Shown: positions 35,733-45,028, counted from the first letter of the stretch. The stretch is 46,524 nucleotides of DNA from Oxalobacteraceae bacterium (GCA_947464955.1 CANHZI010000011.1:1-46524); one strand, 5' to 3'. Numbers and translations are program-made. Notes: generated by a model not told the origin, from the letters alone.

Positions 35733-37970
35733 ATGGTTTCTTTGTCCGCATCTATTAATGAAGCACAACTGGTTGCGGGTTTGTCTGCCGCTGATGCTGA
35801 GCGTGTAAAACAGGCGCTTGAGTTCGTGACTCCGTATTACGAAAATCACGCAATCATCACTGAGCAAAATGCATTGCAGTTTGCTGTTGGCGTCGCCTCC
35901 ACGCTGGCCATGTTAAAGACGGATGTGGATACCAGAATTGCTGCTTTGTTGTTTGAATTGACTGAAGCAAATCCTCTAGCTGCGGAAAAAATCGAAGCCC
36001 GATTCGGTAAAGAAATTAGTGAGCTCGTGGCAGGTGTACGTCGTTTGCTGCGCCTACGTGAAGCGACGCTCACCCAGCACGATGTCGGCAGGGGAAAAGA
36101 CGAAGCCGAACGCACCGCTTCGCAGATGGAGGTTTTGCGTAAGATGGTGTTGGCGATGGCAAATGACATGCGCGTGGTGTTGGTACGCCTTGCCTCGCGT
36201 CTTACCTCTTTGCGCTACTTCGCCGAATGTAAGCGTGACGACGGTGCCGTTCAACAATACGCTAGCGAAACCATGGATTTATACGCGCCGTTGGCGAATC
36301 GTCTCGGTGTCTGGCAGTTGAAGTGGGAATTGGAAGATTTGTCGTTCCGTTTTTTAGAGCCAGAGCAATACAAGAAAATTGCCAAGATGCTTGAAGAAAA
36401 ACGAGTCGAACGTGAAAGCTTTGTGGTCTCTGCCATTGCTCGGCTTGAAAAAGAACTCGCCGCTGTTGGCGTTAAAGCAGAAGTAAGTGGGCGCCCCAAG
36501 CACATCTTTAGTATTTGGAAAAAGATGAAGGGTAAGAAGGTCGACTTCGATGAACTCTACGATGTGCGTGCTTTCCGTGTCATTGTCGATGACATTAAGG
36601 ATTGTTATACGGTCTTAGGTATCCTTAATAATCTGTGGACGCCGATTCCTAAAGAGTTTGACGATTATATTTCTCGCCCCAAACCCAACGGATATAAATC
36701 TTTGCATACGGTCGTCATCGTCGATGATGGACGGCCGCTCGAAGTGCAAATTCGTACCAAGGAAATGCATCAGTTTTCAGAGTTTGGTGTGGCCGCTCAC
36801 TGGCGTTATAAAGAGACAGGCGGCTCAAATTTTTCAGCGCAAGAATATGACGAGAAAATCGCGTGGTTACGCCAACTGCTTGCCTGGAAAAATGAAGTTT
36901 CGGATGTGGTTGTCGACCAAGAACAGTTGCAGCGTGAATGGGTAGAGAAGGTTAAAGCGGCGACTTTAGATGACCGAATTTATGTGTTGACGCCACAAGC
37001 GAGGGTGATCGAATTGCCAAGCGGCGCGACGCCAGTCGATTTCGCTTATCAACTGCATACCGACGTCGGACATCGCTGCCGTGGGGCGCGCGTCGATGGC
37101 GTCATGGTGCCGCTGAATACGCGTCTCAAAAATGGCCAGACCGTTGAAATTATTACGTTAAAAATTGGTTCGATTCAGGCTGGGCCATCGCGTGATTGGT
37201 TGAATCCTGAATATTCCATTGGTACTCGTACTAGAACTAAGATTCGTGCATGGTTCAATGCCATCGATCAGCAAGAAACGCTCAACACGGGGCGTGGCAT
37301 GATCGAGAAAACGTTGCAGCGTGAAGGTAAGACTTCGGTCAACTTGGAAGAGTTGGCGCGTAAGCTCGGTTTTGCTACCGTAGATGAATTATTCCTCTCG
37401 GTTGGCAAAGAAGAGTTTAGTTTGCGTCAAGTCGAAACGGCATTGCGTGATAACCCTGAAAGCGAAGTCGCACCCGAGTTTGTCATCGCGAATAAGAGCC
37501 GCGCTTCAAGTGTAATTCAAGGCGCGAAATCTGGTGTGTTAGTCGTCGGAACCGACGGCTTGATGACGCAACTAGCACGCTGCTGCAAACCTGCACCACC
37601 CGATGACATCGTCGGCTTCGTGACGCGCGGAAAAGGGGTTTCTATCCATCGCCTGACCTGCAAGAACTTTGCGGAGATGCGGAGCAAAGCGCCTGAGCGC
37701 CTGATTCAAACGACATGGGGAGATGGGGGGCGCGATACGGTTTATCCCGTTGATATTTATGTGCTCGCACAAGATCGCCAAGGTCTCTTGCGCGACATTT
37801 CAGAAGTGTTTTCACGCGAAAAAATCAACGTTATCGGCGTCAATACGCAAAGTGCCAAAGGCCAAGCCAAGATGTCGTTCACCGTCGAAATTAACGGCAC
37901 TACGCAATTGCAGAAGTCTTTGACGGTGATAAGGGAAGTGGCAGGAGTTCAAGAAGTTAAACGCGCTTAG
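35733..37970 (+). CDS. relA: RelA-type (p)ppGpp synthetase (HD hydrolase motif degenerate)
   Basis: Synthetase FDELYDVRAFRVIVDDIKDCYTVLGILNNLW, TGS domain, ACT domain; hydrolase HD replaced (IAALLFELTEANP). Confidence 0.94.
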   Translation: MVSLSASINEAQLVAGLSAADAERVKQALEFVTPYYENHAIITEQNALQFAVGVASTLAMLKTDVDTRIAALLFELTEANPLAAEKIEARFGKEISELVAGVRRLLRLREATLTQHDVGRGKDEAERTASQMEVLRKMVLAMANDMRVVLVRLASRLTSLRYFAECKRDDGAVQQYASETMDLYAPLANRLGVWQLKWELEDLSFRFLEPEQYKKIAKMLEEKRVERESFVVSAIARLEKELAAVGVKAEVSGRPKHIFSIWKKMKGKKVDFDELYDVRAFRVIVDDIKDCYTVLGILNNLWTPIPKEFDDYISRPKPNGYKSLHTVVIVDDGRPLEVQIRTKEMHQFSEFGVAAHWRYKETGGSNFSAQEYDEKIAWLRQLLAWKNEVSDVVVDQEQLQREWVEKVKAATLDDRIYVLTPQARVIELPSGATPVDFAYQLHTDVGHRCRGARVDGVMVPLNTRLKNGQTVEIITLKIGSIQAGPSRDWLNPEYSIGTRTRTKIRAWFNAIDQQETLNTGRGMIEKTLQREGKTSVNLEELARKLGFATVDELFLSVGKEEFSLRQVETALRDNPESEVAPEFVIANKSRASSVIQGAKSGVLVVGTDGLMTQLARCCKPAPPDDIVGFVTRGKGVSIHRLTCKNFAEMRSKAPERLIQTTWGDGGRDTVYPVDIYVLAQDRQGLLRDISEVFSREKINVIGVNTQSAKGQAKMSFTVEINGTTQLQKSLTVIREVAGVQEVKRA

Positions 37971-37978
37971 TACTTACT

Positions 37979-38097
37979 CATAAATCCAATTCTCGGGCGC
38001 ACTCTTTGTTGCAAATACTCGCCTTACTGATATTTAACTGCACGATCAAGTTTTAAAGAGGTTACGATCTGTGTGTCGATAGATGTAAGATTTTGAA
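37979..38097 (+). repeat. Intergenic palindromic repeat, copy B (divergent)
   Basis: TAAATCCAATTCTCGGGCGCA.CTCTTTGTTG.AAA..CTCGC...TAC...ATCTG...TCGATA aligns to copies A, C and D. Confidence 0.6.
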
Positions 38098-38120
38098 TAA
38101 ATTTTCCGCCTAAATTCATT

Positions 38121-38444
38121 ATGACTTTTCCAAAATTAGTTGTTTACCTCTTGTTCGCCACCGCAATAGCTTTAGAGGTAAAGGACTCGCATGCTCAGAT
38201 GTGGGACGTCAAAGCGAAATGTGCTAAAAGTGGATGTTACTCAAAAATTGAAGCGATAGAAGAGGCGAAACGAGTTATTTTAGCGAGAGGATTGAAGCTG
38301 TCACATTATCGCTCTACAACAGCTAACTTAAACGGCGGTATTTGGTTCGTTAGATTTGAGGGACAAAATAACGTTCTAGGTGATCATTGCGCGGTTCTTT
38401 TAGATAACAAGACCAGAAAAATCACGTTTATTCATGGAGAATAA
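38121..38444 (+). CDS. small exported protein of unknown function
   Basis: 107 aa; signal-peptide-like N-terminus ending DSHA; three Cys residues; no family recognised. Confidence 0.6.
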   Translation: MTFPKLVVYLLFATAIALEVKDSHAQMWDVKAKCAKSGCYSKIEAIEEAKRVILARGLKLSHYRSTTANLNGGIWFVRFEGQNNVLGDHCAVLLDNKTRKITFIHGE

Positions 38445-38615
38445 ATTGTCTTTATCCAAGGTGGGGTAAGAGTAAGTTGGTTTAATTTATTTGCTAGGTC
38501 GTGCAAAATCCAATCAAATCATTTTTTGCAAATTATTGCTCGCCTTGTTAGGCGAAATTGAATTTGTGTCACATTTTCTTCTTTGAGATCGAGTTCGACG
38601 TGCCGATATAAATTT

Positions 38616-39578
38616 TTAATGCTGATGATTGCACTCAGCCTGCTCGAATTCCTCATCTCTTAGTACTTCCGCTTGCAGCGTAATGTGGTCGATGCCATGT
38701 TTTTCCAACAGCATTTTCTTAATGCTCTCTAAAATTCTCGGCCAAGCTAGGAGGTCGTCGATTTCTAGGTGGCCTATCAATGCCGGTTGACCTGGGGACA
38801 TGTCCCAGATGTGGAGATCGTGCACTGAGGCTACGCCTGGTGTTGCCTCCAAGTCTTCCCCGATTTTGACGAAGTCGATGTGATGAGGCACGCCTTTCAT
38901 TAAAAAATGGAAGGAGTCTTTAATCACGGAGAAAGTCGATTTCAAAATCAACAGCGAAACGAATATCGAGAGGATAGGATCGATTGGCATCCAGCCTGTG
39001 TAAGCAATGATGGCGCCTGAAATGATCGCTGCCACTGAACCCAAAAGATCGCCCATGACGTGAATCAGCGCTGCTTTGGTGTTCATACTTTCTTTGTCGT
39101 GAGAAAGCACCCAAGCGACGATCATGTTGATCGCGAGACCAATCGCGGCAACGATCATCACCATGCCGCCTTGTACGGGTTCCGGTTTAAATAGACGCTG
39201 AATGGCTTCATAGCTAATCCATGCAACCACACCGAGCATCACTAAGCCATTGACGAAGGCGGCCAAGGCTTCTGATCGGCCAAAGCCAAATGTATGTTTG
39301 GCAGTAGGAGGGCGCTTTGCAATCATTTGCGCTAATAAAGCCAAACCGAGGGCGGCGGAGTCGGTCACCATGTGACCTGCATCGGATATTAATGCGAGTG
39401 AATTGGAAACAAAGCCAAACACGACTTCGACCGCAGCAAAAAATAGCGTGAGACCAAGGGCCCAGGCTAAAACCGATTGGCTACGGTCTGCAAAGTAATG
39501 CTGATGCTCGGCATCGCCGTGACGATGGGCGTGGAGGTGGGCGGTTTTAGGATCGTGCGAATGAGTATCGTGTGGCAT
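38616..39578 (-). CDS. cation diffusion facilitator family transporter (CzcD/ZitB-like)
   Basis: His-rich N-terminus; FVSNSLALISDAGHMVTDSAALGLALLA; INTKAALIHVMGDLLGS-like HxxxD motif. Confidence 0.93.
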   Translation of the reverse strand: MPHDTHSHDPKTAHLHAHRHGDAEHQHYFADRSQSVLAWALGLTLFFAAVEVVFGFVSNSLALISDAGHMVTDSAALGLALLAQMIAKRPPTAKHTFGFGRSEALAAFVNGLVMLGVVAWISYEAIQRLFKPEPVQGGMVMIVAAIGLAINMIVAWVLSHDKESMNTKAALIHVMGDLLGSVAAIISGAIIAYTGWMPIDPILSIFVSLLILKSTFSVIKDSFHFLMKGVPHHIDFVKIGEDLEATPGVASVHDLHIWDMSPGQPALIGHLEIDDLLAWPRILESIKKMLLEKHGIDHITLQAEVLRDEEFEQAECNHQH

Positions 39579-39732
39579 GTCTTTTTGGTATGTCGATGGG
39601 TGCGGCAATCAGTGATGCCCTCATTGTAAAGTATTTGCGTGACAGTCACGTTTCGAGTTTTGTTTGAATGTTTTGTTTGTTCTACTTGCGATGGAGATCA
39701 GACGCTGGTTTTGAGTGTGGAAGAAAAAGCAC

Positions 39733-39761
39733 TTTACGAAAGAGATTGTATTTGCTATAGT
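39733..39761 (+). promoter_or_regulatory. promoter of tRNA-Val
   Basis: TTTACG - 17 bp - TATAGT, 11 nt before tRNA 5' end. Confidence 0.6.
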
Positions 39762-39772
39762 CTCGGCTCTTC

Positions 39773-39849
39773 GGGCGGTTAGTTCAGCTGGTTAGAATAC
39801 TTGGTCGACATCCAAGGGGTCGGGGATTCGAATTCCTCACCGCCCACCA
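39773..39849 (+). tRNA. tRNA-Val(GAC), atypical C33
   Basis: Acceptor GGGCGGT/ACCGCCC, CCA encoded; anticodon stem CTTGG/CCAAG with loop TCGACAT; T-loop ATTCGAAT. Confidence 0.88.
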
Positions 39850-39878
39850 GAATTCAAAAGATCTACAAAGAAGGCTAG

Positions 39879-39996
39879 GTATCCCTAAAAATTCAATTAT
39901 AGGGATGCAGATCGAGGCGAAAAACGTAGCAATACTCTTGTATTGCGAGGCTTTTCAACAAAGAGATGCGCCCTAGAATTGGATTTGTAGGGATAC
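39879..39996 (-). repeat. Intergenic palindromic repeat, copy A (best preserved palindrome)
   Basis: GTATCCCTAaAAATTCAATTATAGGG...TAGAATTGGATTTGTAGGGATAC terminal inverted arms; central GCAATAC-tctt-GTATTGC. Confidence 0.85.
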
Positions 39997-40011
39997 TTTA
40001 GTAAGAGCGAG

Positions 40012-40085
40012 AAAGGCACCTGGTTATGACACCGCGAACTACGATCACATTCCAATGTGAGCGACGCTAGTCGAGGTGCTTTTTC
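40012..40085 (+). ncRNA. candidate multibranched structured RNA / complex terminator between tRNA-Val and thrS
   Basis: Outer stem AAAGGCACCT/AGGTGCTTTT enclosing TCACATT-cc-AATGTGA and CGAC-gcta-GTCG hairpins; ends in T run. Confidence 0.4.
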
Positions 40086-40115
40086 GTCTGAAAGAAAAGA
40101 TGTAATGATGAGAAA

Positions 40116-40140
40116 ACGCGGCTAGCCCGCGTTTTTTTTC
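40116..40140 (+). terminator. Rho-independent terminator upstream of thrS
   Basis: ACGCGG-ctagc-CCGCGT followed by TTTTTTT. Confidence 0.8.
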
Positions 40141-40216
40141 GTCTATCGATTTTGTTGAAGTTTTTAAGATTTTAAACTGGTAATTTTTTTTGGCTTAGGC
40201 CCGTATGGAGATGAAT

Positions 40217-42124
40217 ATGATTTCAATTCGCTTGCCCGATGGTTCGCAACGACAATTTGAGTCCGCTGTCACAGTGGCGCAAGTCGCCGCCAGTATCGGC
40301 ACGGGCCTAGCAAAAGCTGCCTTGGCTGGTAAGGTCAATGGCAAGTTGGTCGACACCTCACATCTGATTGAAGCAGATGCTGATTTGGCGATTGTGACTG
40401 ATAAAGATGCGGATGGCTTAGAGGTAATTCGTCACTCTACAGCTCATTTGCTGGCTTATGCCGTAAAAGAATTGTTCCCTGATGCACAAGTGACAATTGG
40501 TCCTGTGATTGAAAATGGCTTTTACTATGACTTCTCATACAAGCGTCCATTTACACCAGACGACTTAGTTGCCATCGAAAAGAAAATGGCGGAGTTGGCG
40601 AAGAAAGATGAACAGGTTGTGCGCAAGGTCGTACCTCGTGATGAAGCTGTGGCTTACTTTAAGTCTATTGGTGAAAACTATAAAGCTGAGATCATTGAGT
40701 CTATCCCAGCTGATCAAGACGTTTCCCTCTACACAGAAGGTAACTTTACTGATCTGTGCCGCGGCCCACACGTTCCTTCAACAGGAAAATTGAAAGTATT
40801 TAAGTTAATGAAGTTGGCGGGCGCGTACTGGCGCGGTGATTCCAAAAACGAAATGCTGCAACGTGTATACGGCACAGCGTTCGCGAAGAAGGAAGATCAA
40901 GAGCAGTACTTGCATATGTTGGAAGAAGCGGAGAAGCGCGACCACCGTAAGCTAGGTAAGGCTTTGGATTTGTTCCACTTCCAAGATGAGGCACCAGGTC
41001 TCATTTTCTGGCATCCAAAGGGCTGGACTGTTTGGCAGCAAGTTGAGCAATACATGCGTAAAGTCTATCAAGATTGCGGCTATCAAGAAGTAAAGGCGCC
41101 ACAAATTTTGGATCGTACCTTGTGGGAAAAAACAGGCCATTGGGAGAACTATCGCGAGAATATGTTCAGCACCGAGTCTGAGAACCGTAATTACGCATTG
41201 AAGCCAATGAACTGCCCAGGTCACGTGCAGATCTTTAATTCGAATATGCGTAGCTATCGCGAATTGCCGTTACGTTACGGTGAATTCGGTCAATGTCATC
41301 GCAACGAACCTTCTGGTGCTTTGCACGGCATCATGCGCGTACGCGGCTTTACGCAAGATGACGGCCATATTTTCTGTACCGAAGATCAGATTCAAGATGA
41401 AGTGATGGCTTTCCATCCGCAAGCGATGAAAGTTTACGATGACTTCGGTTTCGAAAATATCCAAATCAAGATCGCTTTGCGTCCAGATAACCGCATCGGT
41501 TCCGATGAAATTTGGGATAAGGCGGAAGATACTCTGCGTGCTGCTTTGCGTAATTGCGGCATGACTTGGGAAGAGTTGCCAGGTGAAGGCGCGTTCTATG
41601 GTCCAAAGATCGAATACCATCTGAAAGATAGCTTAGGTCGTCCATGGCAGGTAGGAACGATGCAGGTGGACTTCTCTATGCCGGGTCGTTTAAGTGCGGA
41701 ATACGTCTCTGACGATAATTCACGTAAAGTGCCAGTGATGTTGCACCGTGCGATTGTTGGTTCAATGGAAAGATTTATTGGTATCTTGATTGAAAATCAT
41801 GCTGGTGCTTTGCCAACTTGGTTAGCTCCAGTGCAAGTTGCCGTGCTCAATATCTCTGAATCTCAGGCCGAATATGCAAAAACTGTGGCTGAAAACCTGA
41901 AAAAACAAGGGTTTAGAGTGCATACAGATTTGCGTAATGAGAAGATTACCTATAAAATACGCGAACATTCCATGCAAAAGTTGCCTTATATCATCGTAGT
42001 CGGTGATAAAGAACGGGATGCAAACACAGTGGCTGTGCGTACGCGCGGTAATCTGGATCTGGGTGTAATGACTCAGGAAGCCTTCTTGGATCGCCTCAAA
42101 AACGACTTGGAAACCAAGGCTTAA
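40217..42124 (+). CDS. thrS: threonyl-tRNA synthetase
   Basis: TGS domain [66 protein letters not shown] before ATG 40217 (40205 is an alternative start). Confidence 0.96.
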
Positions 42125-42183
42125 CCAGCTTTTGCCCGTAGAAATGCACCGCTTGTTGATTTAATTTTTTGAAGGAAACTGCA

Positions 42184-42705
42184 ATAGCTACCGAAAAGTC
42201 ACATCGTATCAACGGTGAAATTACTGCGCCAGAAGTGCGCTTGTCAGGCGTTGATAACGAGCCGTTGGGCATCGTAAAACTGGGTGAAGCCTTTCGCTTA
42301 GCCGAAGAGGCCGAAGTGGATTTGGTGGAAATCGCGCCAACAGCGCAACCACCAGTTTGCCGATTGATGGATTACGGCAAGTTCAAATACCAAGAGCAGA
42401 AGAAGGCGCATGAAGCCAAGCTGAAGCAAAAGGTTATTTTGGTGAAGGAAGTTAAATTCCGTCCAGGTACTGATGACGGTGATTACAACATTAAGTTGCG
42501 TAATCTCGTGAAGTTCTTGGAAGACGGAGATAAAACCAAAATTACTTTGCGTTTCCGTGGTCGTGAGATGGCTCACCAAGAGATTGGTATGCGCATGTTG
42601 GAACGCTTGAAGGTCGATTTGGATCCGTACGGCCAAGTTGAGCAGTTTCCGAAGATGGAAGGACGCCAGATGGTTATGATCTTGGCGCCTAAGAAGAAAA
42701 AATAG
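42184..42705 (+). CDS. infC: translation initiation factor IF-3, predicted AUA start
   Basis: [30 protein letters not shown] then ATA at 42184; the track start TTG 42169 overlaps the SD. Confidence 0.9.
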
Positions 42706-42715
42706 TCGGTGAGCT

Positions 42716-42831
42716 CGTAAATCTAATCGTAGGGTGCATTACGTTGTTGTTTGTCCTCGCAATACTTCGGAATTGCTGCGGGAAACGCCGAGTACTGCAT
42801 CCCTAAAATTAGTTTTCTGAACCCACCTTGC
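42716..42831 (+). repeat. Intergenic palindromic repeat, copy D (between infC and rpmI)
   Basis: GTAAATCTAATCGTAGGGTGCA...CCTCGCAATAC-ttcg-GAATTGC...TACTGCATCCCTAAAATTAGTTTTC. Confidence 0.8.
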
Positions 42832-43020
42832 GGTCTTGAAATGATGAGACGCAAAAAAAGAATTTGTAGAAGTCAACATTTGTAAAAATCGCGATTTCGA
42901 CAAAGGGTATTGAACTCGATTTCAAGCCCAAGCTAAGTGAGAAGTAGGCATCCAAGAGTGACGTCATTGTCACCACCTACCATCATATAAAAAGGAGCTG
43001 TCGTAAAAGACAGAGATGTT

Positions 43021-43218
43021 ATGCCTAAAATGAAAACAAAGAGCTCTGCAAAGAAGCGCTTTCGTGTACGCCCAGGTGGAACAGTTAAGAGTGGTCACGC
43101 TTTCAAGCGCCATATCTTGACTAAGAAAACCACTAAGAACAAACGCCAATTGCGTGGCACCCGTAACATCAACGCGTCTGACGTAACATCAGTCATGCGC
43201 ATGATGCCAACAGCTTAA
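43021..43218 (+). CDS. rpmI: 50S ribosomal protein L35
   Basis: [36 protein letters not shown]. Confidence 0.97.
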
Positions 43219-43246
43219 CCTCTACTCACTATTTTAAGGAGTTATT

Positions 43247-43606
43247 ATGCCTAGAGTAAAACGTGGGGTTACCGCTCGTGCCCGCCATAAGAAAGTTCTC
43301 GATTTAGCCAAAGGCTATCGTGGTCGTCGTAGTAAGGTATTCCGTATTGCTAAGCAAGCAGTTATGCGCGCTGGTCAATATGCATACCGTGATCGTCGTA
43401 ACAAAAAACGTGTATTCCGCGCATTGTGGATTACTCGTATCAATGCTGCATCCCGTCAACACGGTATGACTTACAGCGTGTTCATGAACGGCTTGAAAAA
43501 AGCGAACATCGAACTCGACCGTAAAGTGTTGGCCGATATGGCAGTGACTGACAAGCCAGCATTTGCTGCGATTGTTAATCAAGTAAAAGCGACTTTGGCT
43601 GCGTAA
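43247..43606 (+). CDS. rplT: 50S ribosomal protein L20
   Basis: [55 protein letters not shown]. Confidence 0.98.
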
Positions 43607-43652
43607 TCAGACATAGTCTGCAAATTCGCCATTCGCGAATCTGCATGATGAG

Positions 43653-43689
43653 CGGGGCAGAGGTTGATTCCACTGCCCCGTTTTTTTTG
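43653..43689 (+). terminator. Rho-independent terminator after rplT
   Basis: CGGGGCAG-N11-CTGCCCCGTTTTTTTT. Confidence 0.9.
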
Positions 43690-43811
43690 CTTGAGGATTT
43701 ACGCGAAAGTGAGTGTTCCTTTGTCCTCATAGAACCTCGATTTCGTGTAAGTCTTTATCAAATCCAATTTCAAGTTAACTTTTATCATCCACACTTTGTG
43801 GGAAATATCGC

Positions 43812-44828
43812 ATGAATCCCTTAGATCAAATTGTTGCTCAAGCGATTGCTGATTTTGCTGCTGCGCCTGACGCTGCGGCTTTAGAAAATGCAAAAGCGCT
43901 TTACCTCGGAAAGTCTGGCCAGATCACCGAACAAATGAAAGGCTTGGGTAAGCTGGCTCCTGAAGAACGCAAAGCGCAAGGTGCCGTGATTAACGTCGCC
44001 AAAGAGCAAATTGAAAATGCGTTGACAGCACGTCGTGATGCGCTCGCCAATGCACAAATGGAAGCTCGTTTAAATGCAGAAGCGATTGACGTGACTTTGC
44101 CTGGTCGCGGCCGCGGTATGGGTGGCATTCATCCTGTAATGCGTACTTGGCAGCGTATCGAAGAAATTTTCCGTTCTATCGGTTTTGACGTGGCCGATGG
44201 CCCAGAAATCGAAAATGATTGGACCAACTTCACTGCACTTAACTCGCCAGAAAATCATCCAGCACGTTCGATGCAAGATACCTTCTATGTGGAAGGTAAT
44301 GACACTTCTGGCAAGCCTTTGTTATTGCGTACTCATACCAGCCCGATGCAAGTGCGTTTTGCGCGCATGAATAAGCCACCAATTAAGGTCATCGCGCCTG
44401 GTCGTACTTATCGTGTCGACAGCGATGCAACGCATTCGCCAATGTTCCATCAAGTCGAAGGTTTGTGGATTGCCGAGAACATCAGTTTTGCTGATCTCAA
44501 AGGCGTATATTTGAATTTTGTGAAAGCATTTTTTGAAACAGACGATTTGCAAGTACGCTTCCGACCATCATATTTCCCTTTCACCGAGCCATCTGCCGAG
44601 ATTGATATTGCCTTCGGTAGTGGTCCATTAAAAGGACGTTGGTTAGAAGTGTCTGGCTCTGGTCAAGTGCATCCAACTGTAATTAAGAACATGGGATTAG
44701 ACCCAGAGAAATACATTGGATTTGCGTTTGGTTCTGGTTTAGAGCGTTTAACGATGCTGCGCTATGGCATTAGCGATTTGCGCCTGTTCTATGAAGGCGA
44801 TTTGCGATTCCTGAAGCAGTTTAACTAA
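43812..44828 (+). CDS. pheS: phenylalanyl-tRNA synthetase alpha subunit
   Basis: [61 protein letters not shown]. Confidence 0.97.
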
Positions 44829-44838
44829 TGGAGACATC

Positions 44839-44948
44839 TATAAATCCAATTCTCGAGCGCATATTTTCGTTACAAAACCTCGCAATACCGACGTATTGCT
44901 CTGTTTTGTGCCTCAATCTGCATCTCGATAATCGAATTTCTAGAAGCT
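44839..44948 (+). repeat. Intergenic palindromic repeat, copy C (inside the pheS-pheT gap)
   Basis: TATAAATCCAATTCTCGAGCGCA...CCTCGCAATAC-cgac-GTATTGC...ATCTGCATCTCGATAATCGAATTTCTAG. Confidence 0.85.
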
Positions 44949-45028
44949 CCATATGGAATATTTGTTTCGTCAAAATTAGACTCAATTTTTTGTACTTTAA
45001 AGTACACCATCAACATCACGGTTGAATT

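Follow-up and report, generated by a model that had tools for sequence, protein, structure and literature searches.

The window analysed here is a stretch of 46,524 nucleotides from an Oxalobacteraceae bacterium (GCA_947464955.1 CANHZI010000011.1:1-46524), whose genome belongs to Undibacterium (4.66 Mb in 274 contigs). It contains four copies of an imperfect palindrome of about 118 bp, and these repeats belong to a large dispersed palindromic family without an existing name. The element is found directly behind stop codons, is present at some gene ends and missing from the same gene ends of close species, has multiplied in tandem at several loci, and has arms that covary by Watson-Crick changes only. 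The way in which the arms stay complementary speaks for a process of DNA copying and not for an RNA hairpin under selection. The reading that we put forward, and to which we give roughly even credence, is that of a dispersed non-coding DNA palindrome that spread in the manner of the REP and YPAL repeats, with arms rewritten by template switching and a core kept by selection.

A covariance model built from the four copies gave 59 matches in the genome, some of them being one place found on both strands, and BLASTN with one copy (A) as query gave 32; in all, the genome has about 30 loci with some 50 units, and the lowest E-values reach 1e-27. At several loci, L060 (contig C223), L088 (C48), L089 (C18), L090 (C84) and L097 (C190), the units form tandem arrays of 2-6, repeating about every 105-119 bp, and the array repeats include part of the flank besides the core. 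Contigs C223, C56, C190 and C267 terminate within or very close to arrays; the assembly is probably interrupted by them, which makes the copy numbers lower bounds. A model of 118 positions (R2) matched 41 of 44 Undibacterium genomes, with 0-49 matches in each. In the order, where nine candidates were scored per genome, it matched 123 of 399 genomes and 61 of 158 genera (E 1e-4), most of the matches being weaker. The family, for which the initial annotation had proposed a covariance-model search, is thus real and beyond chance.

Scanning 84,980 species genomes for a pattern of the repeat found, among the matches listed, mostly Undibacterium, together with a few Oxalobacteraceae/Burkholderiales assemblies and Polaromonas sp. 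P2-4. In the distant relatives examined the core motifs are kept and the arms are different and often longer, and in some of these genomes long arms are common to several copies. Plasmids gave five partial matches, in Cupriavidus and Comamonas, and there was no match in the phages searched. Rfam had no family match up to E = 5 except for tRNA-Val, in agreement with the annotation, which had assigned the repeats to no named family, and no report of this repeat family was found in the open-licence literature. The ERIC elements that were named at first as a comparable type are a different sequence: a BLASTN search of 5,426 E. coli genomes (word size 11, E up to 0.1) gave no match.

The element has arms around a core of about 75 bp that is conserved, and 23 full copies could be aligned nearly without gaps across 118 positions. 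The conserved core stretches (GGGCGCAT, GTTGC, CTCGCAATA, TATTGCT, GCGCCT and CTGCATCCC) are bordered by ATAAATCCAATT and AATTGAATTTCTA. Nearly all the copies examined form a single long hairpin, the decayed copy B excepted; the mismatches in it recur at fixed positions and the core is asymmetric. The outermost ~10 nt, outside the conserved arms, are different at each site yet tend to pair, as at sites c42b (AAAATGTCT/AGACATTTT), c77 (GGACTGAG/CTCAGCC) and c42a (TGTTTACCGCA/TGCGGCAAACA). Measured without gaps, Watson-Crick pairing of the arms is about 50-65% up to position 13 and at background beyond. No constant terminal inverted repeats were found, the outer ends varying by site.

The four copies of the window were confirmed where they had been annotated, with model spans close to the original ones. 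Copy A (39879-39996, minus strand) is intact, with outer arms GTATCCCTA/TAGGGATAC, and sits between tRNA-Val and thrS, antisense to both, being an exception to the stop-codon rule described below. Copy D (42709..42826, plus strand) is located between infC and rpmI and begins 3 nt past the infC stop, and copy C (44832..44949, plus strand), between pheS and pheT, also begins 3 nt past the stop of pheS. The first base of copy B (approximately 37972..38100, plus strand) is 1 nt past the stop of a relA/spoT-like gene. This copy is decayed, good preservation being limited to its 5' half (37982-38022, 88% identity to copy A) and the 3' half being rearranged; its orthologs in the sibling species G013 and in G006 are intact. 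The expectation that every copy would fold as a long hairpin held strongly for A (z -8.0 against shuffles) and C (z -5.0) and moderately for D (z -1.6), and failed for B (z +0.65). The loops vary as had been described, with AAGA in A, CGAC in C and the C(UUCG)G tetraloop in D. No further copy was found elsewhere in the window, including its first 37 kb, from which the repeats had already been noted as missing. Four copies in 7 kb around thrS-infC-pheST represent a local excess over the genome mean of about one locus per 150 kb.

The element occupies the start of the 3' untranslated region (UTR) and has the same orientation as the gene before it. Of 77 named copies, 66 have the start of their 118-nt span -12 to +8 nt from a sense stop codon (upstream open reading frames of at least 100 codons), a placement shared by 3% of random intergenic positions, and a convergent stop at the mirrored position on the 3' side was found in 3 of the 77. 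Wherever a same-strand upstream gene is present in the genome of the window, most elements start -12 to +5 nt from its stop; in the -12 class the stop codon is the TAA inside the element's own ATAAAT. Many elements fall between same-strand genes. In mRNA the element would fold into a strong hairpin at most 15 nt from the stop, and by analogy it may lower the translation or alter the decay of the upstream gene, and E. coli REPs within 15 nt of the stop codon have been reported to reduce translation (PMC12306157).

The covariation of the arms, a check that had been suggested with the initial annotation, is real and strictly Watson-Crick. In an alignment of 93 rows 94.8% of the cells pair, compared with 35-42% in slid controls, and 33 of 40 pairs have changes on both sides. 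One-sided wobble changes are almost absent from the arms. Selection on a transcript tolerates G.U and not A.C, whereas a DNA palindrome treats both equally. The first count of sense-strand mismatches gave 31 G.T versus 44 A.C, and an independent pipeline (MAFFT/RNAalifold) 25 versus 27, with 386 two-sided Watson-Crick changes. A model-based count over the orthologs found 591 cells with a two-sided change from one Watson-Crick pair to another, and one-sided changes to G.T in 111 cells and to A.C in 133. In contrast, 6S RNA of the same genus had 43 G.T versus 2 A.C, with 22 two-sided changes (Fisher p ~1e-7 for the contrast with the element), and six tRNAs of the same genomes had 11 versus 0. 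With G.T as rare as A.C, unlike in 6S RNA and tRNA, the covariation is not RNA-like.

The same kind of change is seen at short distances. Between the genome of the window and its sibling G013, with a coding identity of 87-100%, 57 of 680 pair cells carry a two-sided Watson-Crick change. Changed pairs were adjacent 15 times, versus a mean of 6.5 in column-preserving shuffles, a value reached in 0.05% of the shuffles. At site c190 a synonymous difference among the gene's last codons is even mirrored in the 3' arm. Two-sided Watson-Crick changes that cluster in this way and lack intermediates of the wobble type are the signature that template switching would directly explain.

At ortholog sites we found filled, empty and otherwise occupied positions. 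Site A is filled in the genome of the window and in G013, retains a deletion remnant in G006 and is empty in the other relatives examined. At site C the element is present in G008 and G003, G007 has a partial deletion and the sibling G013 has lost the copy; a different palindrome of the CCGCAGAGGCGCAGAG type is found there in G012, G001 and others. At site D, G012, G001, G007 and G033 have a short GGGCGGGTTGTAACCCGCC-like hairpin instead. The same mix of filled, empty and otherwise palindromic sites appeared at 21 further gene ends in five relatives. At sites c42b, c149 and c199, compared across G006, G007, G008 and G012, the element is present in one species and unrelated palindromes (CCCTCTCCCGC...GCGGGAGAGGG, GGGTGGGAATTTCCCACCC) in the others; to judge from the sequences, the place just past these stops seems to be a slot in which one hairpin can be exchanged for another. 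No target-site duplication could be made out at A and c39, the empty sites that could be aligned, most other empty sites being too divergent. Dyad symmetry at the insertion point is suggested at D and c194 and not at c111, c190, c18 and c223. Entry of the element into the loop of a hairpin already in place fits the first two sites but was rejected as a general rule, since the empty sites c111, c190, c18 and c223 have no such hairpin. The idea, prompted by locus L410, that 55 bp of host DNA had been copied by snap-back was also rejected, since another copy of that genome (L417) has the same long arms, which therefore belong to the element there.

We propose that the element would have spread as a non-autonomous mobile palindrome by means of a putative mobiliser. 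During replication the nascent strand would fold back within the palindrome and be copied from its own other arm, which we judge the likeliest process for the arms. One such event would write a change from one arm into the other, and this would apply to the site-specific flanks as well and reach as far as the gene's last codons. Template switching at quasipalindromes, known in E. coli, rewrites one arm as the complement of its partner in one event (PMC7202029), and template switching has been proposed as maker and keeper of hairpins and as a source of compensatory changes (PMC8794818). The fixed mismatches and the asymmetric core would probably be kept by selection for a protein that moves or binds the element: the survival of the fixed mismatches calls for a second force that maintains the core, the simplest being protein recognition of the hairpin. 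With somewhat less confidence, short of an even chance, we suggest that the arms could be self-perpetuating. After the element lands behind a stop codon, template switching would rewrite both arms from the local sequence, and the site-specific stems would come to reach the stop codon and extend into the last codons.

Several points weigh against this proposal. Perfect template switching should remove even those mismatches that almost every copy retains, so that selection is needed too. Clustered two-sided changes are also expected from the replacement of a whole element by another copy, and the covariation tests ignore the relatedness of the sequences. No mobiliser was found, nor a target duplication at the empty sites that could be aligned, and what is seen at sites D and c194 looks more like insertion into a hairpin that was already there than like extension of the arms.

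The arms might instead be held together by a single-stranded DNA hairpin needed by a transposase, in the style of REP/RAYT or IS200/IS605, pairing and fixed mismatches being selected because only well-folded copies move. Such a transposase would accommodate the Watson-Crick-only covariation, the conserved mismatches and the asymmetric core as well as the dispersal and the filled and empty sites. Y1 transposases are indeed present in 43 of 44 genomes, and their number is weakly correlated with that of the element (rho 0.33). We nevertheless consider this explanation unlikely, since recognition alone hardly explains the site-specific arms and the element is near a Y1 gene in only 5 of 43 Y1 loci, about 0.7-4 kb off and never adjacent, while G014 has five Y1 matches and zero element matches. 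The RAYT-like gene examined in the genome of the window has GTAGGGCGGGT REPs as flanks, not the element. On contig C68 a gene for a Y1 (RAYT-like) transposase of 183 amino acids (L092:1147-1698) has GTAGGGCGGGTGCAACCCGC palindromes on both sides, a separate REP family. Mobilisation by RAYT is thus not supported, Y1 genes lacking a flanking element and the correlation of copy numbers being weak. An orientation bias with respect to the replication strand, significant in G006 alone, was rejected for the three genomes together (49/77 vs 284/534, p 0.09).

Less probable still, and in our opinion doubtful, is a functional RNA hairpin of the 3' UTR that stays paired because the mRNA is under selection, be it for stability, for translation or for protection from exonucleases. 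The sense orientation, the tight position behind stop codons and the many copies between same-strand genes are what such a role would predict. The position is shared with the translation-reducing near-stop REPs of E. coli (PMC12306157) and is like that of ERIC, which alters mRNA stability (PMC2229807). Yet the arms show no tolerance of G.U, G.T being no commoner than A.C, unlike in 6S RNA and tRNA, and many of the genes concerned are without the element in sibling species. An RNA effect may be a secondary role of the element.

The initial annotation had classed the repeats as a miniature inverted-repeat transposable element (MITE) or ERIC-like element. Part of this stands, the family being multi-copy, non-coding, palindromic, dispersed and intergenic, with filled and empty sites and a suitable size. 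A classical MITE of the ERIC or Correia type, with fixed terminal inverted repeats, a target duplication and the transposase of a parental insertion sequence, is however very improbable. Neither constant terminal repeats nor a target duplication (none readable at sites A and c39) nor a gene-bearing parent was found; the termini differ between sites but pair, and the element is restricted to positions at stop codons. Among the loci examined there was no longer version in which half-elements enclose a gene, whole genomes not having been searched for one. Three features lie outside the ERIC or MITE interpretation: the anchoring to stop codons, the arm ends that are unique to each site yet complementary, and the strictly Watson-Crick covariation. 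The initial annotation had mentioned neither the sense-oriented anchoring nor the tandem arrays outside the window nor the Watson-Crick-only character of the covariation. Integron attC-like sites, weighed on anatomy only, were set aside, the copies being dispersed without cassettes.

Judged by analogy, the nearest relatives in function are the YPAL palindromes and the near-stop REPs. REPs are 20-40 bp long and carry a GTAG or CGTC tag. Like REPs and BIMEs, the element is an extragenic palindrome found behind genes, often at the stop codon, but it measures about 118 bp, has no GTAG/CGTC tag and does not flank Y1 genes; GTAG REPs can provide the TAG stop (PMC3733652). ERIC/IRU (127 bp, enterobacteria) is similar in size, forms one long hairpin, is intergenic and has a possible effect on mRNA, the differences being that the element has no E. 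coli sequence match, site-specific ends and a tight anchoring to stop codons. YPAL, or RU-2, are 168-bp palindromic sequences of Yersinia with target duplications of 3-26 bp (PMC2229807). YPAL and the element are both long imperfect palindromes, multi-copy and near genes, with filled and empty sites, and the targets of YPAL span or adjoin a dyad symmetry (PMC2229807), to which sites D and c194 may be comparable. Length, and probably sequence, set the element apart from YPAL; no target duplications were seen here, and neither arms that pair in a site-specific way nor tandem arrays are described for YPAL in the text consulted. With the hairpins maintained by template switching (PMC8794818, PMC7202029) the element shares the multi-base two-sided compensatory changes of the arms; those cases are mainly rRNA or reporter genes, whereas here we have a dispersed repeat at many loci and no trace of G.U.

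Among small palindromic repeats the element is distinctive for its stop anchoring, its site-specific arms and its DNA-level covariation. With dozens of loci in dozens of species, it provides a natural system for separating mutation-driven from selection-driven compensatory change in hairpins, which is a general question of RNA evolution. The contrast between G.T and A.C is also a simple strand-asymmetry test for claims of structured RNA derived from covariation. If the arms are indeed self-perpetuating, strong RNA-like covariation would arise without selection on RNA and could mislead RNA discovery based on covariation. If the family is mobile, it would reset the 3' UTRs of core genes (infC, pheS) and could shift expression between sibling species.

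Regarding the neighbouring genes, the relA/spoT-like gene upstream of copy B (35733..37970, plus strand) was named from its translation, and pheS (43812..44828, plus strand) is found upstream of copy C. Upstream of copy D, infC is listed as an open reading frame at 42169..42705 (plus strand), with the true start probably a few codons further in. The gene apparently starts at an ATA codon (GGAAACTGCAATAGCTACCGAAAAG, 42180-42190 of the window), and infC is known for rare start codons of this kind. The tRNA-Val (gac) that adjoins copy A (39773..39849, plus strand) scored 59.8 bits against Rfam in E-value mode (gathering score 29) and is absent from the gathering-mode output of the whole window. 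The leader of thrS (40000-40160 of the window) is strongly conserved throughout the genus. It contains a short frame rich in threonine codons, ATG ACA CCG CGA ACT ACG ATC ACA TTC (MTPRTTITF...), followed by hairpins with T runs, and from its sequence looks like a threonine-codon attenuator of thrS.

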